Assembly (NCBI RefSeq): GCF_921294215.1 | Contig: NZ_CAKLDM010000002.1 | Location: 930,001 to 994,000 of the forward strand | Length of the DNA: 64,000 nt | From: Vibrio marisflavi CECT 7928 | GTDB taxonomy: Bacteria > Pseudomonadota > Gammaproteobacteria > Enterobacterales > Vibrionaceae | Direction: 5' to 3' | Shown here: piece by piece, positions 9,345-35,423 of the stretch | Layout of the letters: every line of letters begins with the position of its first letter | How positions within the stretch are numbered: the stretch's first letter is position 1 | Made by a program: the position numbers and the translations under genes | The notes under the pieces: generated by a model | The model's input: the letters and a program-made list of their open reading frames with translations, nothing else | Database searches by the model: none | What the model was told of the DNA's origin: nothing

Positions 9345-9914
9345 TTGGTTTTTTCTCGTCGTCAATTTTTAAAGTTATCGGCTGGTGGATTACTTCTTGC
9401 GACGGGATTGCCGCGTTTAGTTCAAGCTCAGGCTTTACCTGTAGCTAAGTGTCCGACCGATCCTCGCTCACTCACTTTCAATAATCTTCATACCAATGAG
9501 AGATTAGATTGCTGCTATTTTGATGGAAGCGATTATGTCGAAAGTGTTCTCACCAACCTAAATCACTTTTGTAGAGATTTCCGCCGCAACGAAGTTCACG
9601 TGATGGATAGAAAGCTTTTTGATCTCCTCTATCAAATCAAGTTACTGCTAGCGACCGATGCAGAAGTGGAACTTGTCTCAGGCTATCGCTCGCTTGCGAC
9701 TAACAACGCATTAAGGAAGCACTCGCATGGAGTGGCAAAACACAGCTATCATACCAAAGGTCAAGCAATCGACTTTAGACTCAAAGGAGTTCCTCTCAAT
9801 GAGGTTCATGAAGCTGCCTTGGCATTAGAGCAGGGAGGGGTGGGATATTACCCTAGAAGCAATTTTGTTCATATAGATACCGGGCCAGTTCGGCACTGGT
9901 CTCAGTCAGTTTAG
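9345..9914 (+). CDS. mepK: Tat-exported murein endopeptidase, MepK/YcbK family (DUF882)
   Basis: The 189-residue protein starts at TTG and carries a twin-arginine signal (SRRQFLK, then a hydrophobic stretch and VQAQA). The LAS-type zinc site is visible as His136 and Asp143 in HTKGQAIDF and His176 in NFVHIDTG. These have the same spacing (7 and 33) as the metal ligands of E. coli MepK. MepK cleaves mDAP-mDAP crosslinks, so it undoes the bonds made by the upstream transpeptidase. The TTG is accepted because an upstream ATG is stopped at once and an AGGT precedes it. Confidence 0.9.
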   Translation: MVFSRRQFLKLSAGGLLLATGLPRLVQAQALPVAKCPTDPRSLTFNNLHTNERLDCCYFDGSDYVESVLTNLNHFCRDFRRNEVHVMDRKLFDLLYQIKLLLATDAEVELVSGYRSLATNNALRKHSHGVAKHSYHTKGQAIDFRLKGVPLNEVHEAALALEQGGVGYYPRSNFVHIDTGPVRHWSQSV

Positions 9915-27969: not shown

Positions 27970-28650
27970 TTAAGTGCGATTGTCTCCAACGCTATAGGCG
28001 ATAGTTTGGCTGATTTCCGTATAGCTTCGAGAGGATTCGTCTTGCCAAATGTTGAAAGCTTCTTGGGCTGCTTTTAATGCCCTCTGAGTGGCTTTCCCTC
28101 CATCGACAATATTGTGGTTGCGCAAGTAACTCTCCACATCACCTGAAAGGATAAAAGTATCTACACCCATTTGGCGTAGTGTATATGGACCAGTGTTGCC
28201 GCCCAAGCGAGCTCCATGTTTTTTAAGGTATTGCCATAAACCAGTGACGTCATCCTTTGGCCAGTTTGCGACAAATTGAGAAAATGAACCATATTGCAGG
28301 TTGACTTCATGAATCATGCGCGCGTTTTGAGCGATACTCATCACTTTAGTATGATGGCGAATAATCCGAGCATCGCTGGCCTTCTCGTCCCATTTTTCTT
28401 GGGGTAGTAGCAGTAAAGGCTCTATACGAAACTGAAAAAAAAGCTCTTCAAAATTAGGCCATTTGTTACGAACTACTTGCCAAGATATACCACTTTGAAA
28501 TACTTTTTGGGAAAATGCAGACAACCATCTGTCATCTGGGATTTCGGCCAGTGCGTCAAAGCTTATTGGCTTTGACAGCATTGATTCCAGGTTCGCTTCT
28601 CCGCCTTTTCTTTCTGCTGCACGCTGGTAAATCTGTTCAAACTTTTCCAT
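27970..28650 (-). CDS. Tag-like DNA-3-methyladenine glycosylase family protein
   Basis: A 226-residue helix-hairpin-helix glycosylase of the COG2818 class: FQSGISWQVVRNKWPNFEE, DARIIRHHTKVMSIAQNARMI, then YLKKHGARLGGNTGPYTLRQMG align with E. coli Tag. The protein has no cysteine at all, so the zinc-binding snap of classical Tag is absent. Base specificity is therefore uncertain. It starts 17 bases after the stop of the second Hsp70 gene, with AAGGAAC upstream, and so is probably in the same transcript. Confidence 0.8.
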   Translation of the reverse strand: MEKFEQIYQRAAERKGGEANLESMLSKPISFDALAEIPDDRWLSAFSQKVFQSGISWQVVRNKWPNFEELFFQFRIEPLLLLPQEKWDEKASDARIIRHHTKVMSIAQNARMIHEVNLQYGSFSQFVANWPKDDVTGLWQYLKKHGARLGGNTGPYTLRQMGVDTFILSGDVESYLRNHNIVDGGKATQRALKAAQEAFNIWQDESSRSYTEISQTIAYSVGDNRT

Positions 28651-28666
28651 AGTTCGTTCCTTAAAA

Positions 28667-31492
28667 TTATTGCAATAACCTTAGCCCACTCGGTAAAGCT
28701 TCACCAAAGACGCGTTTCGATTCAGCCTCTGAAAGTTCTTTGACTTCTGTGACTAAGTCCAGCCAAGAGTTTGGCATCTTACTTTGCTGTAATTTATCTA
28801 ATAACTTCTCTCGGTACTCGTCGGAAATATCTATGGTTCTATCACCAGTTTTACGGCACATCAAGACAGCGGCAAAACCAATGATAGGTTCATCTTGCCA
28901 GTTTTGATCGAGTAGCTTGGGCAGCCATTGATGAATCTGGTCTTTATCAATCACATTATGCTGGCTTTCATAGAGTGGCGTGCGAGCTGCCAAACGGCCA
29001 AGTGCCCACCAGTGCGCCTGATTAAACTGCTTTTGGTTAAGCGCTTTAGACAAAAACCAAGATGATAATAGCACTTTGTCGTCAACGTGAAGCCTCTCCA
29101 TCGATGCGGCTAAACGCACCATAGCCTCGTAGCCCTTGCTCTGTACATCTTTGGCATTTTTAGCGTTCTTCATGGCTCCAGGGTGCAAGTATTTAGCGAT
29201 ATCAGCCAGAATAGTTTCTTGCTGCTCTTGTGATAAGCCACCAGAAACTCTGCGCCAAAATACCCACCAGTCTGTCCAACTTTGGTGATCTTCAAATTGA
29301 ATCCCTTGTTGGAACAATGGCCAAATGTGTTCTATACGCCACGAATCTGTGGCGTCACCAAAGCCCGGCCTCAATGTATATCCAGCAAGTCTCAGCCAGT
29401 TTTTTTCATGTGATTCAGAACGGCGGCGACGCTTTTTCCCTTGAATCACGGTGTCGAATAGCTGTCTTAAAGTATAAAAATCCCAGACTTCTCGTTTGCC
29501 TAAACGTTTTTCCAAATCGCGGTTTAGGGCTTTTATCGCTTTGCTGTCACTTGCTTTTTTGTTACCACTATAAAGGTTCTGGATGATCTCTTTACACTCT
29601 TTTAGGCGTGGGTGTTCAGAATGTTCTAAATCGTCTTCTTGATTGCTCTGCTTCCTAACTTCGAATTCCAGTGACCAACGATTTGAATCATTGTTAACGT
29701 CTACACATTCAACCTTTAGCGTACCGACCTCAGTCAACTGAGAAGCTAAGATGACTTCCACTCGATGTTTTTCATTGGCAGCTAAGGCTAACTCGGTTTC
29801 ACTCTCTAAGGTAGATATGTAGGGAGGAAGCGCATTGAATTGCTCTGTATTGACGTCGACCACTAAACCATTTTTTACTGAGACCGACAAAGTTGAATTG
29901 TTCTCGCCGATTTCTTCGTGAGTTGAAGTTAGCAGATTAAAGCGAACTGGTTCGCCAAGCGTTAGTGCAAACCTGCGGCCTGTTAAGCGGATTTCTTGTC
30001 CTTCTTCTGTGCCTTTCGCGAGTAAACACAGTGCTTTACTCTTCTTGTTTTTTTCTTGTAGGTGAAGAAAATACGAACGCGCAGCACCGCCACCAATTTT
30101 GATTAGAGCGCCATGTCTGGCTTTACCATACGCCACTGCACCCAAAGCCACAGACCAATCAGGGTGAGGGTTCTGCAAAACACAAATGCTTGAGTCTCGC
30201 CAACCAGAGAGAAGGTTCGTCATTCTCTTTGTTACTAGCTCGCTATTAAATACGCCACCGTTAAAGATCACCCCAACAGGTAGTGCCGGCCTAGACTCGT
30301 CACTTTTTTCAAGAGCACTGCGGCATACTGTTTGATGATTAGTCAGAAACTCCGCGATATGTTTACTAATAGCGGCATCGGCAACATAGGGTAGGCCAAA
30401 TTCAACTACTGCACTTCTACGCTTGTTAGGAAGTTCATCAAATTCAGTTAGAGGGAAAAAGCCTTCAAGCGCAATATCATGAACTTCTTGTTTACTTAAA
30501 AGGGCACTTTTAGCACCTCCAATAAGCTTTGAACCTCCACCAAGCATAGTGATTTTTGCTTCATTTGGAGCTGTTGGCGACAGCAGTGATTCCTTGGCTC
30601 GTCTAGTTTGTTGAATAAGTTTAGACAAATTGGCGGCAGTTAGCTTTTTGCTTGCACTTAGTCGTTGTTCTGCTAGGTGAGCAAGAGCTAAATCTATGTT
30701 GTCCCCACCAAGCATTAGGTGTTCGCCGACGCCAATACGTTTGAGCTCTAAGTCATCGCCATTAATATTGGCGTGAATTAAGCTAAGATCGGTGGTTCCC
30801 CCACCAACATCACAAACCAATACCAGTGGAATTCCGGCTAGTTTCTCATTTGCATTGCTTTTATGCCTATCATACCAGTCATAAAATACTGCTTGAGGTT
30901 CTTCGAGTAGCAAAATGTCATGTAAGCCTGCGAGTTGTGCCGCTTCTAGAGTTAATTTCCTAGCCGTTTCATCAAAAGATGCTGGAATGGTTACAACAAC
31001 TTGCTGTTGATCCATTTTGTCATTTGGGAAGTGATAGTCCCACGATTGTTTTACATGGTTCAAGTAGCTTGCGCTTGCTATTAAAGGCGAGACTTTTTCA
31101 ACCTTTTCACCACCCGTCCAAGGCAAGATTTCAGCTTTTCTGTCAGCATTAGGGTGTGAAAGCCAGCTTTTCGCGCTGGAAACTTGCCTTCCTTCAACCT
31201 TGGCACCTAGTTCTCTTGCCCATTCGCCAACGATCACTGTATCCAGATCACCATCTACTAGTTGTGTTTGCCATGGCAAAGTTAAGTCAGAGGGACTCAC
31301 TTGATTTGGGGTTGGGTGATAGCGAAATGAAGGCAGAAGAGGTTTACGTACAACTTCTCCCGGACCAATTAGCTGGTCTATTTCGAATATTTTAGTCTCG
31401 GAATTATTCAAATCATCTTGAATCTCACTATAAGCGACAACGGTGTTGGTTGTACCTAAGTCTATACCGACGAGATAGCGGGAAGATGCCAT
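28667..31492 (-). CDS. divergent Hsp70 with C-terminal DUF3731-type domain
   Basis: A 941-residue protein with an Hsp70 nucleotide-binding domain over roughly residues 1-450: phosphate loops VGIDLGTTNTVVAY and CDVGGGTTDLSLI, and the adenosine motif FNGGVFNSELV. The C-terminal half (about 600-941) replaces the DnaK lid with a helical domain I take as DUF3731 (RLAGYTLRPGFGDATDSWRI, then LARTPLYESQHNVID). The ATG at 31492 follows AGAGG; the open frame extends 54 codons further, but through a terminator. It is the second Hsp70 of this operon; no DnaJ or GrpE gene is near. Confidence 0.88.
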   Translation of the reverse strand: MASSRYLVGIDLGTTNTVVAYSEIQDDLNNSETKIFEIDQLIGPGEVVRKPLLPSFRYHPTPNQVSPSDLTLPWQTQLVDGDLDTVIVGEWARELGAKVEGRQVSSAKSWLSHPNADRKAEILPWTGGEKVEKVSPLIASASYLNHVKQSWDYHFPNDKMDQQQVVVTIPASFDETARKLTLEAAQLAGLHDILLLEEPQAVFYDWYDRHKSNANEKLAGIPLVLVCDVGGGTTDLSLIHANINGDDLELKRIGVGEHLMLGGDNIDLALAHLAEQRLSASKKLTAANLSKLIQQTRRAKESLLSPTAPNEAKITMLGGGSKLIGGAKSALLSKQEVHDIALEGFFPLTEFDELPNKRRSAVVEFGLPYVADAAISKHIAEFLTNHQTVCRSALEKSDESRPALPVGVIFNGGVFNSELVTKRMTNLLSGWRDSSICVLQNPHPDWSVALGAVAYGKARHGALIKIGGGAARSYFLHLQEKNKKSKALCLLAKGTEEGQEIRLTGRRFALTLGEPVRFNLLTSTHEEIGENNSTLSVSVKNGLVVDVNTEQFNALPPYISTLESETELALAANEKHRVEVILASQLTEVGTLKVECVDVNNDSNRWSLEFEVRKQSNQEDDLEHSEHPRLKECKEIIQNLYSGNKKASDSKAIKALNRDLEKRLGKREVWDFYTLRQLFDTVIQGKKRRRRSESHEKNWLRLAGYTLRPGFGDATDSWRIEHIWPLFQQGIQFEDHQSWTDWWVFWRRVSGGLSQEQQETILADIAKYLHPGAMKNAKNAKDVQSKGYEAMVRLAASMERLHVDDKVLLSSWFLSKALNQKQFNQAHWWALGRLAARTPLYESQHNVIDKDQIHQWLPKLLDQNWQDEPIIGFAAVLMCRKTGDRTIDISDEYREKLLDKLQQSKMPNSWLDLVTEVKELSEAESKRVFGEALPSGLRLLQ

Positions 31493-31534
31493 GTAAACCT
31501 CTAAAAAATCACTAGGCTTGGTTAGATTAAGTGA

Positions 31535-31570
31535 AACAAAAAAGCCGTGTACTTTGAAGTACACGGCTTT
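31535..31570 (-). terminator. terminator between the two Hsp70 genes
   Basis: On the minus strand a perfect 13-14-bp stem AAAGCCGTGTACTT/AAGTACACGGCTTT with a tight loop is followed by TTTTTTG. It lies 11 bases after the first Hsp70 stop and 43 bases before the start of the second. It should lower expression of the second Hsp70 and the glycosylase unless read-through occurs. Confidence 0.88.
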
Positions 31571-31580
31571 AAGCGTTGAT

Positions 31581-33494
31581 TTATACGTGCTCTGGAGTTT
31601 GTTGATCTGCAGAGTCTTCACGTACGTCAAATTCAACATGCCATTTTTGGCCATTGTCCGTCGCGATGGCCTCGAGTTGCAAAGTACCTAATTCAGTCAC
31701 TCGTGAAGCCAGTGTTACTGGAACAATCTCACCCGTGCTGCGCCCTTCAGAAACGGGAAGGCTCAGTTGAATTTCTGGTAGTTCTTCCAGCTCTCCTTCA
31801 CGCCAATGGTCGAGGTGTGTACCGGCTTCATCTTCTCTACGCGTAGTTGAACCATAAAACTGGAAGTGGACCGGTTGGCCGATAACCAAACCAAATTCTT
31901 GGCTAGGTACATCAGCATTTGAGCCTTCTTCCATGCCAAATGGTGCGACACAGATAGCTTCGAGCGGCGGCGCCATTCCCGGGATAGCGGGCATAGAGCT
32001 TTCAATTCCAACATAGTAGCTAGAAGCAATACCGCCGCGAATACGGATACCTTGACCTCGACGCACAGAACCATAGTAAGAAGCACCACGAGAAACGGCT
32101 AAGTCTAGGTCTAGTCCGGTTAAACGTTTTGCAAATTCAGCTTCTGCATCATTTAGCCAAGTATTGATGGTTTCAAATAAGCGGCTGGCGAGTAGATCAG
32201 ATTTCAAAACGCCGCCATTAAACAATACCGCGGTAGGTTTAATGAAGTCTACGGTTTGTTCTTGTCCCGGCATGCCAGGCATATTTGCGAAAGGGTTATG
32301 CTCTTCGGCTGGTGCGTGGCTATTCGCGCTTGCTTGCTTGGATAGAAAAGCAGCAATGTGTCGTGTAATACCTGCATCTTGAGCATAAGGGAGGCCCATT
32401 TGGGTAAGTGCACCGCGGTTTTTTTGTATTGGATGCTCGCCAATTCCGACAAGAGGGAAGAACCCATCAACTAACGTTTGCTGAACTTCTTGCTGGGTCA
32501 ATTCGGTTTTTAGTGTCGAGCCTAGCATTTTCGAGCCACGGCTTGGTACGACAATTGGCACAGACTCTAATTCTGGATCGTTTAGTAGAGCTTCTTTTGC
32601 ATCTCGGCAAGCTTGAGTAATCGCTTGGATTTGCCAAGGAGCGAGATCCTTGCCATCTTGAGCCAATTTCATTTTTAAACGGTAAGCAAGTGCAAGGTCC
32701 ATATTGTCGCCACCGAGAAGAATGTGTTCACCTACGGCAATACGGTTTAGCTCTAGGTTGCCATCATCTTCAGTAACTTCAACTAAAGATAAGTCGGTTG
32801 TACCTCCACCGATATCAACAACCAATACGATATCTCCAGCACTCACTTGATCGCGCCAAGAATCGTTGTTGTTATCAATCCAGCTATACAGAGCGGCTTG
32901 AGGCTCTTCCAACAAGGTTAAATGCTGAAGCCCAAGGTTTCTTGCAGCTTCAACAGTTAGATCTCGCGCAGCTGGATCAAATGAAGCAGGTACAGTAACA
33001 ATGACTTCTTGTTCGCACAGCGGGTTTTCTGGATGCTCTTTATTCCATGCATCTCGCATGTGCTCTAGGTAGAGCTCTGATGCTTTTAGAGGAGAGACTT
33101 TTTCGACTTCCTCCGGGCTACCGTTTGGTAGGAATGCTTCACGGCGGTTAACACCACCATGGCACAGCCAAGACTTCGCGCTTGCTACCAAACGCATTGG
33201 CGTTTTGCTGCCAAGGTTACGTGCAATTGCCCCAACTAAAGCATTTGGTTCGTCTGTCCAAGGCAAAACACGGGAAGACGTATCCATTTCGTGTTCATGT
33301 GGTTGGTACAAGAACGAGCCTAACTGACTTTTAGTTTCAACCGTTCCCGGTGAAGTGAGCTGAGGGATTTCCATCAGCTCTACACTAGGCTCTTCTTGAG
33401 AGTTATCTGTGTACGAAATGACACAGTGAGTTGTACCTAAATCGATACCGACGCTATATCTAGGCAGATGCTCTGCTTGGGTAACATTATCCAT
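31581..33494 (-). CDS. divergent Hsp70 family protein
   Basis: A 637-residue Hsp70-family ATPase with clear phosphate motifs (VGIDLGTTHCVISY, VVDIGGGTTDLSLVEV) and an adenosine motif FNGGVLKSDLL. After the ATPase domain it has a beta-rich region (about 510-637) but no DnaK-type helical lid. An insertion near residues 390-415 is rich in proline, glycine and methionine (NPFANMPGMPGQEQ). Its start overlaps the DUF2760 stop by one base (TAATG), implying coupled translation. Client and function are unknown. Confidence 0.88.
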   Translation of the reverse strand: MDNVTQAEHLPRYSVGIDLGTTHCVISYTDNSQEEPSVELMEIPQLTSPGTVETKSQLGSFLYQPHEHEMDTSSRVLPWTDEPNALVGAIARNLGSKTPMRLVASAKSWLCHGGVNRREAFLPNGSPEEVEKVSPLKASELYLEHMRDAWNKEHPENPLCEQEVIVTVPASFDPAARDLTVEAARNLGLQHLTLLEEPQAALYSWIDNNNDSWRDQVSAGDIVLVVDIGGGTTDLSLVEVTEDDGNLELNRIAVGEHILLGGDNMDLALAYRLKMKLAQDGKDLAPWQIQAITQACRDAKEALLNDPELESVPIVVPSRGSKMLGSTLKTELTQQEVQQTLVDGFFPLVGIGEHPIQKNRGALTQMGLPYAQDAGITRHIAAFLSKQASANSHAPAEEHNPFANMPGMPGQEQTVDFIKPTAVLFNGGVLKSDLLASRLFETINTWLNDAEAEFAKRLTGLDLDLAVSRGASYYGSVRRGQGIRIRGGIASSYYVGIESSMPAIPGMAPPLEAICVAPFGMEEGSNADVPSQEFGLVIGQPVHFQFYGSTTRREDEAGTHLDHWREGELEELPEIQLSLPVSEGRSTGEIVPVTLASRVTELGTLQLEAIATDNGQKWHVEFDVREDSADQQTPEHV

Positions 33495-34126
33495 TACAGT
33501 TCAACCTCCGCTGGTGCAATTACTGAAGCATTGTAATTTTCAGAGACTTTCGGCAGTTTGATTTCGTCAGCTTTCCAGCCCTTGTGAACCAGAATACCTT
33601 TGAATGGTGCACTACCCGTAACGTTGCCCGTCAATCGCACTTCTTGTGGGTTGAAGCCTTCAGCAACAACAATTTGTGATTCTTCATCTTCAGCACGAAC
33701 AGGTGAGAGTGATAGGTATTCCTTCAGTACTTTCTGTCCGCCACTATGGATAACACGTGCAGCTGCACCAACTTCTTCATCAGAGAAAGCAGATACATCT
33801 TCATGAAGGAAATCTACGAGGCGAGCTTCATTTTGAAACAAAGAAAGCAGCTGTAGTGCAGAGTCAGTAGGATTTTTTGCAAGTTTTGATTCAACTTCAA
33901 CGATTTTCTCGACTACTTTTTCAACCTCAACAACTTTTTCAACTTCGACTAATTTCTCGACAGGCTTTTCAACTTCGACAATTTTTTCTACGGGTTTCTC
34001 AACCACTTTTTCCACGACCTTCGCTTTTCGGAAAATTACCATTAGCAAAAGCAAAACAACAACCGCAGCCAAGATGGCGTGAAGCATGTCGAATGTAGTT
34101 GGAAATAGATTTAAATCAACAGTCAT
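33494..34126 (-). CDS. DUF2760 membrane-anchored protein
   Basis: A 210-residue protein. A single N-terminal membrane segment (about 13-33, LHAILAAVVVLLLLMVIF) is followed by a low-complexity coiled linker of VEK/VEVEK repeats (36-79) and a soluble DUF2760-type domain (about 85-210, including ARVIHSGGQKVLKEYLSLSP and VHKGWKADEIKLP). The orientation suggests a membrane tether projecting the domain into the cytoplasm. It is the first gene of an operon with two Hsp70 genes, a combination conserved in other proteobacteria. Confidence 0.85.
   Translation of the reverse strand: MTVDLNLFPTTFDMLHAILAAVVVLLLLMVIFRKAKVVEKVVEKPVEKIVEVEKPVEKLVEVEKVVEVEKVVEKIVEVESKLAKNPTDSALQLLSLFQNEARLVDFLHEDVSAFSDEEVGAAARVIHSGGQKVLKEYLSLSPVRAEDEESQIVVAEGFNPQEVRLTGNVTGSAPFKGILVHKGWKADEIKLPKVSENYNASVIAPAEVEL
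33890..34021 (-). repeat. in-frame VEK repeat tract
   Basis: The DNA encodes residues 36-79 of the DUF2760 protein as about ten imperfect units of four to six residues (VVEK, PVEK, IVEVEK, LVEVEK). Near-identical nine- to eighteen-base units, such as GTTGAAAAAGT on the minus strand, are the kind that change copy number by slippage. Confidence 0.8.
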
Positions 34127-34444: not shown

Positions 34445-34975
34445 ATGAACCACAACCGAATAGTTTGTTTGGATTTAGAGATGTGCTGTTGGAACCAAGA
34501 CGGTGTCGGCACTACAGGGGAAATCATCGAGGTTGGTCTGGCAGAGGTTGATGTACTGAAAGGCGAAATTGTCAAACGGGCTCAATACTACGTTAAGCCT
34601 GAAACTGATGAAGTATCGCTGTTTTGTAGTGAACTCACAGGAATTACGCCTAGAAAAATAGAGAAGCAAGGTAGACCACTTGAAGCTGTCATTCAGTCAA
34701 TGATTAAAAACTTTGGTGGCGCGAACAAAATATACGCTTCATGGGGTAGGGATGATCTGATTCTGCAAAAGGAATGTGAGCAAAAAGGAATTGCTATGCC
34801 TTTTAAAGAGTTTATAAACTTAGCAACACTATATCGTGTGCAAAATAGGGTTAAAGATAAGCGTGTAGGTCATCGAGAAGCGCAAGAAAAAGCAGGAATA
34901 GACTGGGAAGGGCGCCAACATTCCGGATATGTGGACGCCTATAATTTGGCTAAGCTGGCCTTAACTATGCTCTAA
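34445..34975 (+). CDS. DEDDh 3'-5' exonuclease
   Basis: A 176-residue single-domain exonuclease. The DEDD acidic residues are in VCLDLEMCCW (D, E), in WGRDDL, and in the C-terminal HSGYVDAYN, where the His-x4-Asp pattern marks the DEDDh class. It resembles the KapD/Eri1-like exonucleases annotated for RNA or DNA ends. It ends four bases from the convergent TerB-like gene, with no terminator between. Confidence 0.85.
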   Translation: MNHNRIVCLDLEMCCWNQDGVGTTGEIIEVGLAEVDVLKGEIVKRAQYYVKPETDEVSLFCSELTGITPRKIEKQGRPLEAVIQSMIKNFGGANKIYASWGRDDLILQKECEQKGIAMPFKEFINLATLYRVQNRVKDKRVGHREAQEKAGIDWEGRQHSGYVDAYNLAKLALTML

Positions 34976-34979
34976 GGCT

Positions 34980-35423
34980 TTATTTTTCAATCACTGCAAG
35001 TTTCGCACGGATGAATTCACTGTGGTCGACATATAATAACTCGGCCACTTTGCGTACAACAGCTTCTTCCATTGGGTCGATATTGCCATCCGCGTTTGCA
35101 ACTTCCCACATTGCTTTAATCAATTCAAAACGAGCATCTTGAGACAGTTCTCTTAGCTGGGAAGTAAAATCATACAGAGATGCTGATTTTTTAACTTTCT
35201 CTTCTGCTTCTACAATAAGGTTTTGGCTTTCTTCATCGCTTACTCCTAGTAAACGAGTTAAGAGAGCTGACTTTGTTTTCGGTTCGATTGCGGAAGTATG
35301 GTGATCAGCGTCTGCCACCTCGCATAGCAGTGAAGCCATTGCGAGACTTGGGTTGTTTCCTTGCTGTTGATAGTTCGTTCCTTCGATAAGTTGTTTGAAT
35401 ACATTGGTAATTGTATTGAACAT
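34980..35423 (-). CDS. TerB-family (COG4103) helical protein
   Basis: A 147-residue all-helical soluble protein with the TerB acidic metal-binding pattern (MASLLCEVADADHHTSAIEP near residue 30 and MWEVANADGNIDPMEE near 107). Relatives are annotated as tellurite-resistance TerB but most are of unknown role. AGGTGT precedes the ATG. No ter genes are nearby. Confidence 0.85.
   Translation of the reverse strand: MFNTITNVFKQLIEGTNYQQQGNNPSLAMASLLCEVADADHHTSAIEPKTKSALLTRLLGVSDEESQNLIVEAEEKVKKSASLYDFTSQLRELSQDARFELIKAMWEVANADGNIDPMEEAVVRKVAELLYVDHSEFIRAKLAVIEK

Follow-up and report, generated by a model that had tools for sequence, protein, structure and literature searches.

The question raised by this locus of Vibrio marisflavi CECT 7928 is whether two divergent Hsp70 genes, encoded together with a DUF2760 protein and a Tag-like glycosylase-family protein, belong to an undescribed machine and, if so, which of the four genes are part of it. 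An Hsp70 cycle is generally regarded as dependent on a J-protein and, in most cases, on an exchange factor too; a co-occurring pair of altered Hsp70s with a membrane-anchored partner and no J-protein gene nearby would, if the reading proposed below is true, represent a different way to run the Hsp70 engine. Two domains of unknown function (DUF2760 and DUF3731) gain a concrete proposed function that can be tested, and a real three-gene module is told apart from a misleading glycosylase neighbour. The original prediction had put the system forward as a candidate for an undescribed one, and keyword searches of open-licence papers agree with this, returning passing mentions of these genes only and no study of the system.

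Organization of the Locus

In the window (the whole stretch of 64,000 nucleotides that was analysed), four open reading frames encoding DUF2760, HspA, HspB, and the glycosylase were found on one strand, as predicted, together with the following features:

33494..34126, minus strand: DUF2760 protein, 210 aa, with an N-terminal TM segment, a VEK-rich linker, a helix plus beta domain, and a conserved APAEVEL end (PF10816, AF2 model, 80 named loci)
34031..34087, minus strand: membrane helix predicted at residues 14-32, with FRKAK after it (model helix; TM-like in 96/113)
31581..33494, minus strand: HspA, 637 aa, with an Hsp70 NBD and an SBD-beta-like region, apparently without a lid (Pfam HSP70 67.3 bits; 600 columns aligned to HspB)
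31541..31570, minus strand: intrinsic-terminator-like hairpin in the HspA-HspB gap (13 bp stem, 4-nt loop, T-rich tail)
28667..31492, minus strand: HspB, 941 aa, with an Hsp70 NBD, an SBD-beta-like region, and a predicted helical C-terminal domain at the place of the lid
28676..29419, minus strand: DUF3731 domain of HspB (PF12531 327.1 bits; all-helical in the model)
27970..28650, minus strand: Tag-like glycosylase-family gene, a neighbour judged to lie outside the module (comparison of loci)

The first two genes overlap by one base (DUF2760 34126-33494, HspA 33494-31581) and the last two are separated by 16 bases (HspB ends at 28667, the glycosylase gene starts at 28650), both as originally described. 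The most likely start of HspB is the ATG at 31492, preceded by GAGG, and not the open reading frame start at 31654, which gives a protein of 941 aa; the gap between HspA and HspB is 88 bases. The expectation that no DnaJ or GrpE partner is encoded nearby was likewise borne out, in that no J-domain or GrpE gene scored above the cut-off near the locus; the canonical grpE and one dnaJ are found about 600 kb off on the same contig, and a J-domain match below the cut-off about 400 kb off. Among the PADLOC profiles for anti-phage defence, only PDC-M61B gave matches, which were weak (24.5 and 22.3 bits) and confined to the ATPase domains.

Conservation of a Three-Gene Module

Among the 274 genomes of the class sample, DUF2760 was found in 10 and DUF3731 in 11, with 10 common to both (Fisher p 2e-17), and among the 398 genomes of the phylum sample in 28 and 27, respectively, with 27 common to both (Fisher p 5e-41); relatedness among the genomes is not taken into account in these p values, and some genomes belong to both samples. 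For every mismatch between the two families, the neighbour lies at a contig end. Hsp70s of the HspA/HspB type were present in 11 of 252 class genomes, with two copies in each, and these are the same 11 that carry DUF3731. Gene order was compared across 80 named loci, retained from 546 confirmed genome loci. DUF2760 directly precedes HspA on the same strand in all 80, and the DUF2760 stop overlaps the first in-frame HspA start codon in 73 of the 75 loci measured. HspB follows at 260 nt or less from HspA in 56 of the 80, and where the locus is without HspB, nine of the ten genomes checked carry DUF3731 in another place. DUF2760, HspA, and HspB constitute a recurrent module, which shows near-perfect co-occurrence in the sampled genomes and is usually contiguous. 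Its range covers Vibrio, methanotrophs, relatives of Duganella, and Magnetococcales, as well as Verrucomicrobiota by DUF2760 alone, and among the species listed with a DUF2760 relative is Vibrio natriegens; on viral contigs, 62 stretches with the pattern were found, none encoding a relative. That these genes tend to be passed on jointly in distantly related bacteria suggests a chaperone machine that has not been studied and that probably works at the cell membrane.

The predicted co-occurrence of four genes holds for these three, but the glycosylase falls outside the recurrent set. Its product matches Pfam Adenine_glyco at 57.7 bits (cut-off 25) and NCBIfam TIGR00624 at only 39.1 bits, far below the cut-off of 232.5. 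A single operon of all four genes, acting in DNA damage by way of the glycosylase, would agree with the 16-base gap in this genome. However, of 47 Vibrionaceae loci, only 9 have a glycosylase within the flanks and none has it adjoining, although L039, L041, and L044 extend little or not at all past HspB. No glycosylase is found in the remaining 33 loci, of which many are short, and in five relatives where it is close by, it is separated from the module by a hairpin and a frame on the opposite strand. The glycosylase was rejected as a member of the module or operon on these grounds, thereby depriving the DNA-damage idea of its main prop; the four-gene explanation is already largely refuted and retains next to no probability.

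The set also departs from a single simple transcription unit, in that a recurrent terminator-like hairpin follows HspA. Such hairpins were found in 38 of 46 HspA-HspB gaps of Vibrionaceae and Moritella, the one in the window included, where 0.28 would be expected in shuffles. The hairpin is a probable attenuator, and its recurrence suggests that the dosage of HspB is controlled by read-through.

Two Divergent Hsp70s

HspA and HspB match Pfam HSP70 at 67.3 and 59.0 bits, respectively (cut-off 20.6), whereas DnaK from the same genome reaches 876 bits. Both keep the ATPase motifs, as predicted: the catalytic equivalents of Lys70, Glu171, Asp194, and Thr199 (DnaK numbering) are invariant in 40 HspA and 33 HspB sequences (73/73). 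Two further positions correspond to the J-domain contact residues of DnaK, Arg167 and Asn170. At the latter, all 73 sequences (40 HspA, 33 HspB) have Glu; at the former, 39 of the 40 HspA have Thr, Ile, Val, or Asn, and 8 of the 33 HspB have Arg. Since some residues of Hsp70 allostery (the Pro143 and Arg151 equivalents) are kept, independence from J-proteins is no more than an inference. The hydrophobic interdomain linker of DnaK (LLLDVTP) is gapped in 40/40 HspA and 33/33 HspB, an alignment-dependent result in which part of the mismatch could be an alignment gap.

When the HspB model was compared with structures using Foldseek, the top matches were to DnaK, and the model matched the NBD and SBD-beta of DnaK and BiP, the predicted SBD-beta-like substrate-binding region being aligned through residue 612. 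The statement that a DnaK-type lid is missing was right in substance: HspA, aligned to HspB over 600 columns, appears from its sequence to stop where the SBD-beta-like region ends, whereas HspB is predicted to have the DUF3731 helices at the position of the lid. This is the DUF3731-type domain foreseen at the end of one Hsp70 (PF12531, 327.1 bits); it is all-helical in the model, and a search by sequence gave no credible solved relative. The same alignment with DnaK and BiP argues against reading HspA and HspB as cytoskeletal or regulatory actin-fold ATPases instead of chaperones, an explanation that draws on weak Pfam MreB_Mbl matches (30.4 and 22.9 bits, cut-off 27) and is highly improbable, HSP70 scoring higher on both proteins.

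It is possible, though tentatively so, that HspB is an Hsp110-like exchange factor for HspA, with the Hsp70s forming a pair and DUF2760 serving only as an anchor. The presence of two paralogues, 36% identical, in each of the 11 genomes having any would suit such a division of labour, as would the large helical C-terminal domain of HspB and the Hsp110 structures among the matches of its model (6gfa, 3c7n_A, and 2qxl_A). However, these matches rank below DnaK and BiP and are expected because the Hsp70 fold is shared; moreover, both paralogues keep the ATPase residues.

The DUF2760 Protein

The DUF2760 protein (PF10816, 178.6 bits) had been described as a membrane segment, a VEK-repeat linker, and a soluble domain, and this architecture matches the AF2 model, in which a helix (residues 14-32) is followed by a low-confidence linker with VEK repeats (37-79) and a mostly confident C-terminal domain (pLDDT 86-94 in blocks from residue 91 on, except one block of 64). 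Using a hydropathy cut-off, a TM-like segment was detected in 96 of 113 DUF2760 sequences; the other 17 have none at this cut-off, and several of them have an amphipathic-looking helix. A tether appears to be present in most, but not all, members of the family. Because FRKAK follows helix 14-32, the positive-inside rule would place the N-terminus outside and the C-terminus inside.

The folds nearest to the DUF2760 model are those of GrpE, although as weak matches, which opens the doubtful reading that DUF2760, anchored in the membrane, exchanges nucleotides on HspA (and HspB) in the manner of GrpE; its TM segment and linker would stand in for the long stalk of GrpE, and its beta domain would serve as the wing, opening the ATPase domain. 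A divergent Magnetococcales subset, picked post hoc, gave a weak in-register GrpE match (5 of 100 for the wing). For the whole family, GrpE homology by sequence is unsupported, with profile scores no better than shuffles and GrpE (PF01025) absent among the Pfam matches at E <= 0.001. At the same threshold, neither the Pfam J domain (PF00226) nor a viral fold library gave a match to DUF2760, and no solved relative credible by sequence was found.

Proposed Mechanism and Known Systems

The reading preferred here, with a probability of roughly one half, is a pair of Hsp70s that is tethered to the membrane, works independently of J-proteins, and takes part in the quality control of envelope proteins, with DUF2760 as its anchor and co-chaperone. 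It agrees with the original idea of a membrane-tethered ATP-driven machine, which fits the TM-like segment in most DUF2760 members and the kept ATPase residues. The three proteins would form a dedicated Hsp70 machine on the cytoplasmic side of the inner membrane. In it, DUF2760 would be an anchored co-chaperone whose synthesis is tightly coupled to that of HspA, and would hold this lidless Hsp70 at the membrane in a putative physical complex. HspB, with the helical DUF3731 in the place of the lid, would be the Hsp70 partner of HspA and, in Vibrionaceae, may be made at a lower or regulated dose via the read-through terminator. Instead of a J-protein, DUF2760 and the respective other Hsp70 would drive each of the two ATPases, and the machine would serve the quality control of envelope or membrane proteins. 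An elaborated version, unlikely as a whole, is a J-protein-independent motor in which DUF2760, as an anchored exchange factor resembling GrpE, drives the lidless Hsp70, the DUF3731 Hsp70 is the Hsp110-like member of the pair, and there is a periplasmic partner linked across the membrane in some lineages and read-through terminator dosing in others.

The module resembles DnaK-DnaJ-GrpE in its Hsp70 ATPase domain with invariant catalytic residues, its SBD-beta-like region, and DnaK as the top match of HspB, but differs in having two divergent paralogues, no J-domain or GrpE gene nearby, changed J-contact residues, a lid that is apparently missing (HspA) or replaced (HspB), and a partner that is probably membrane-anchored. 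HscA-HscB likewise involves a specialised Hsp70, and HscA is the best-scoring NCBIfam model; however, HspA and HspB reach only 80-85 bits, far below the HscA cut-offs of 620-709, and a separate HscA is encoded elsewhere in the genome, recognised by its profile match and a neighbouring J-domain gene. HscC and YegD are divergent bacterial Hsp70s and, similarly, non-canonical ones outside the heat-shock operon, but the YegD model PRK11678 scores 23-29 bits on the module's Hsp70s (cut-off 331). The mitochondrial import motor Tim44-mtHsp70-Mge1 combines an Hsp70 at the membrane with a dedicated anchor and an exchange factor, and the module may be likened to it, by analogy only, in keeping an Hsp70 at the membrane through a dedicated anchor. 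Eukaryote Hsp110-Hsp70 and RAC (Ssz1-zuotin) each bring two divergent Hsp70s together, a cooperation that the module may share by analogy; unlike them, it contains DUF3731, which is without a credible solved sequence relative, and has no zuotin-like J-protein nearby.

Upstream Genes and Expression

The suggested link to envelope stress is plausible through a secreted two-Cys gene and HtpX upstream, but it is indirect and comes mainly from Methylococcales. The secreted two-Cys gene lies upstream in 23 of 80 loci, mainly in Methylococcales, and one genome has it in the same frame as DUF2760; HtpX lies just upstream in 7 loci, all of them of the Methylococcales type. The secreted protein was rejected as a dedicated partner because its family occurs in 11 of 274 class genomes, 2 with DUF2760 and 9 without, and because the window genome has no member of it (best E 0.083). 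Its 13 members share no Pfam match common to more than one of them, and a search by sequence gave no credible solved relative.

Published expression data for V. cholerae record HapR activation and in-biofilm repression and name no client. HapR control was rejected as a general feature: of 43 upstream regions, only two have a HapR-like site at p <= 0.05. When up to 5 mismatches were allowed, the V. cholerae site was not found in the locus of V. mimicus (L039), and that of V. metoecus (L047) gave a single match, with 5 mismatches, near 9614.

Gene Organization in the Window

The original prediction described four genes on one strand, the first two overlapping by one base and the last two 16 bases apart, and this geometry is as observed:

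34126-33494, reverse strand: DUF2760 gene (Pfam DUF2760, 178.6 bits)
33494-31581, reverse strand: HspA gene, a lidless divergent Hsp70 (Pfam HSP70, 67.3 bits)
31492 (likely start)-28667, reverse strand: HspB gene, 941 aa, a second divergent Hsp70 with DUF3731 in the lid's place (Pfam HSP70, 59.0 bits; DUF3731, 327.1 bits)
28650-27970, reverse strand: Tag-like glycosylase gene (Pfam Adenine_glyco, 57.7 bits)

The nearest named relatives of the DUF2760 protein are from Vibrio, the best few being 74-78% identical. The claimed absence of a nearby DnaJ or GrpE partner is likewise confirmed, as the canonical grpE and a dnaJ sit about 600 kb off.

A Recurrent Three-Gene Module

Co-occurrence across genomes was borne out for DUF2760, DUF3731, and the Hsp70 pair. 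In the class sample of 274 genomes, DUF2760 is present in 10 and DUF3731 in 11, with 10 in common; in the phylum sample of 398, which overlaps the former in some genomes, the corresponding counts are 28, 27, and 27. An HspA search of the class genomes (E ≤ 1e-30, up to four candidates scored per genome) gave matches in 11 of 252, two copies each, and these are the same 11 that carry DUF3731. Two genomes are mismatched: HspA runs off the contig at the expected place of DUF2760 in G174, and the contig stops 84 bases past HspA, at the expected place of HspB, in G294; because the neighboring gene meets a contig end in both, the missing gene is likely unassembled. DUF2760 was present in 10/10 listed genomes of the window's genus and was not found in at least 20 phylum-sample genomes from other families of its order; its distribution is patchy, yet it is retained wherever present. 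Named DUF2760 proteins also come from Magnetococcales, Rhodospirillales, Chthoniobacteraceae, and Terrimicrobiaceae, the last two belonging to Verrucomicrobiota.

Gene order was surveyed in the best 80 of 546 confirmed places, in all of which HspA lies no more than 100 nt downstream of DUF2760, in the same orientation. HspB follows HspA within 260 nt in 56 of these loci and 635-1056 nt on in three more; the other 21 are without a nearby copy, with less than 1.3 kb of DNA remaining in 10, 4.4 kb in one (L063), and about 8 kb in 10. Among the loci without HspB, the contig of L062 simply stops past HspA, and DUF3731 occurs elsewhere in 9 of 10 genomes checked. Among 75 loci (five with HspA partial, broken, or missing the motif used being set aside), the DUF2760 stop and the first in-frame HspA start codon share one base in 43 and four bases in 30; in the remaining two, 2 and 55 bases lie between the genes. 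The order DUF2760, HspA, HspB recurs in 20 additional regions outside the 80, including L180 and L187, in which overlapping frames masked one label at first. Variations comprise two unrelated-looking frames inserted between HspA and HspB in one genome (L174, 9287-11833), a DUF2760-HspA spacing of about 500 nt in a Magnetococcales locus (L185), and four Duganella-type loci in which the HspA-HspB junction is either a 2-base gap or a four-base overlap. DUF2760, HspA, and HspB form a recurrent three-gene module, which is a variant of the Hsp70 kind.

HspA is split over two reading frames in three draft genomes, namely V. mimicus (L039, 10633-12527), V. sonorensis (L042, 10549-12503), and a Methyloprofundus MAG (L068, 3867-5292), which may reflect sequencing error or decay. 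Several Methylococcales-type loci carry an N-terminal HspA extension (one, L062 6677-8827, begins MSFFDQMKKKAADAV) that could provide a second membrane or partner contact.

The Tag-Like Glycosylase

Membership of the glycosylase in the set, as originally predicted, was rejected: its gene is within the flanks of 9/47 Vibrionaceae loci, three of which 47 (L039, L041, L044) have little or no DNA past HspB, and directly adjoins in none. By eye, five loci with a close glycosylase (L013, L016, L022, L035, L043) have a hairpin after HspB and an apparent short opposite-strand frame ahead of the glycosylase, which is a neighbor of the module. The Adenine_glyco match of the window's protein (27970-28650) is confined to residues 49-132, and the protein falls far under the NCBIfam Tag cut-off; perhaps it represents a divergent glycosylase family in its own right.

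A Hairpin between HspA and HspB

The single-operon claim held in part: DUF2760, HspA, and HspB are contiguous, but a terminator-like hairpin parts HspA from HspB, and the glycosylase stands outside the recurrent set. Defined by a stem of 7 or more pairs, 4 or more of them G-C, and a T-rich tail, such a hairpin was found in 38 of 46 HspA-HspB gaps from Vibrionaceae and Moritella, including the window, against 0.28 expected from shuffles (L039, L041, and L042, with HspA or HspB cut or broken, were excluded). Eight gaps gave none (L011, L012, L018, L044, L045, L046, L049, L061); that of L011 is 12 bases, L045 has no gap, and L046, L049, and L061 have, by eye, a stem with a loop beyond the scan's allowed length. 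Because stem sequences vary between groups, the hairpin itself, not its stem sequence, is what is conserved. The stem lies within 30 bases of the predicted HspB start in 20 of 38 loci (48 bases in the window), which leaves little space for a promoter; we infer that HspB is made by read-through at a reduced level, whereby the hairpin would lower the HspB dose.

Upstream Neighbors and the Proposed Mechanism

Directly upstream of DUF2760, a secreted or lipoprotein-like protein is encoded in 23 of the best 80 of 546 loci, mainly Methylococcales, with two cysteines invariant in 13/13 aligned members; in one genome (G136) its frame continues into DUF2760 with no stop between, and an internal start may be used. 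HtpX is a membrane quality-control protease, and htpX lies just upstream of the secreted-protein gene in 7 of those loci (with one short frame between in L067); the two scanned are HtpX (NF003965, 425.6 and 422.1 bits, cut-off 245). Weighing against this envelope hint, 9 class genomes carry the secreted two-cysteine family but lack DUF2760. A membrane-tethered, J-independent Hsp70 pair for envelope quality control is given about an even chance (roughly 0.5).

Next to the module (34445-35423) is a pair of genes pointing toward each other, one for an RNase T-type exonuclease and one for TerB; among the best 80 of 546 loci, they are near the module in 41 and 31, respectively. Between the exonuclease gene and DUF2760, 23 of these 80 loci have a divergent gene of one family (e.g., L012, 7962-9605), CHASE-GGDEF in the member scanned, and not at the same place in the window.

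Literature and Other Chaperone Genes

The module is real, recurrent, and unstudied in the open-licence papers searched, where DUF2760, DUF3731, and their Pfam numbers gave no match. The V. cholerae orthologues are inferred from gene names and order to be VC1373-VC1375. HapR activates the VC1375 promoter in vivo and in vitro (PMC10328515); VC1374 is one hit within in-biofilm repressed genes, outside the nine followed up (PMC9201469), and one polymyxin B table (PMC5636140) gives it a log2 value of -2.68; for VC1373, a riboflavin/iron table (PMC5816637) has -1.039. A DnaK-related protein is carbonylated after UVB in Photobacterium (PMC3706606), and another is on a list of differentially expressed proteins from Thiodictyon (PMC6413534); in PMC9608740, VC1374 is a strain name, not the gene.

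The window's genome has two DnaK-like genes, each above 860 bits. A third Hsp70 (655 bits) adjoins a J-domain gene and, by that pattern, is presumably HscA; a further one is taken for YegD. Immediately downstream of the second full-length DnaK-like gene (G000:C1:53524-55732, 863.9 bits) lies a second strong J-domain gene, and this pair on contig C1 is additional to the canonical grpE-dnaK-dnaJ region on C2.
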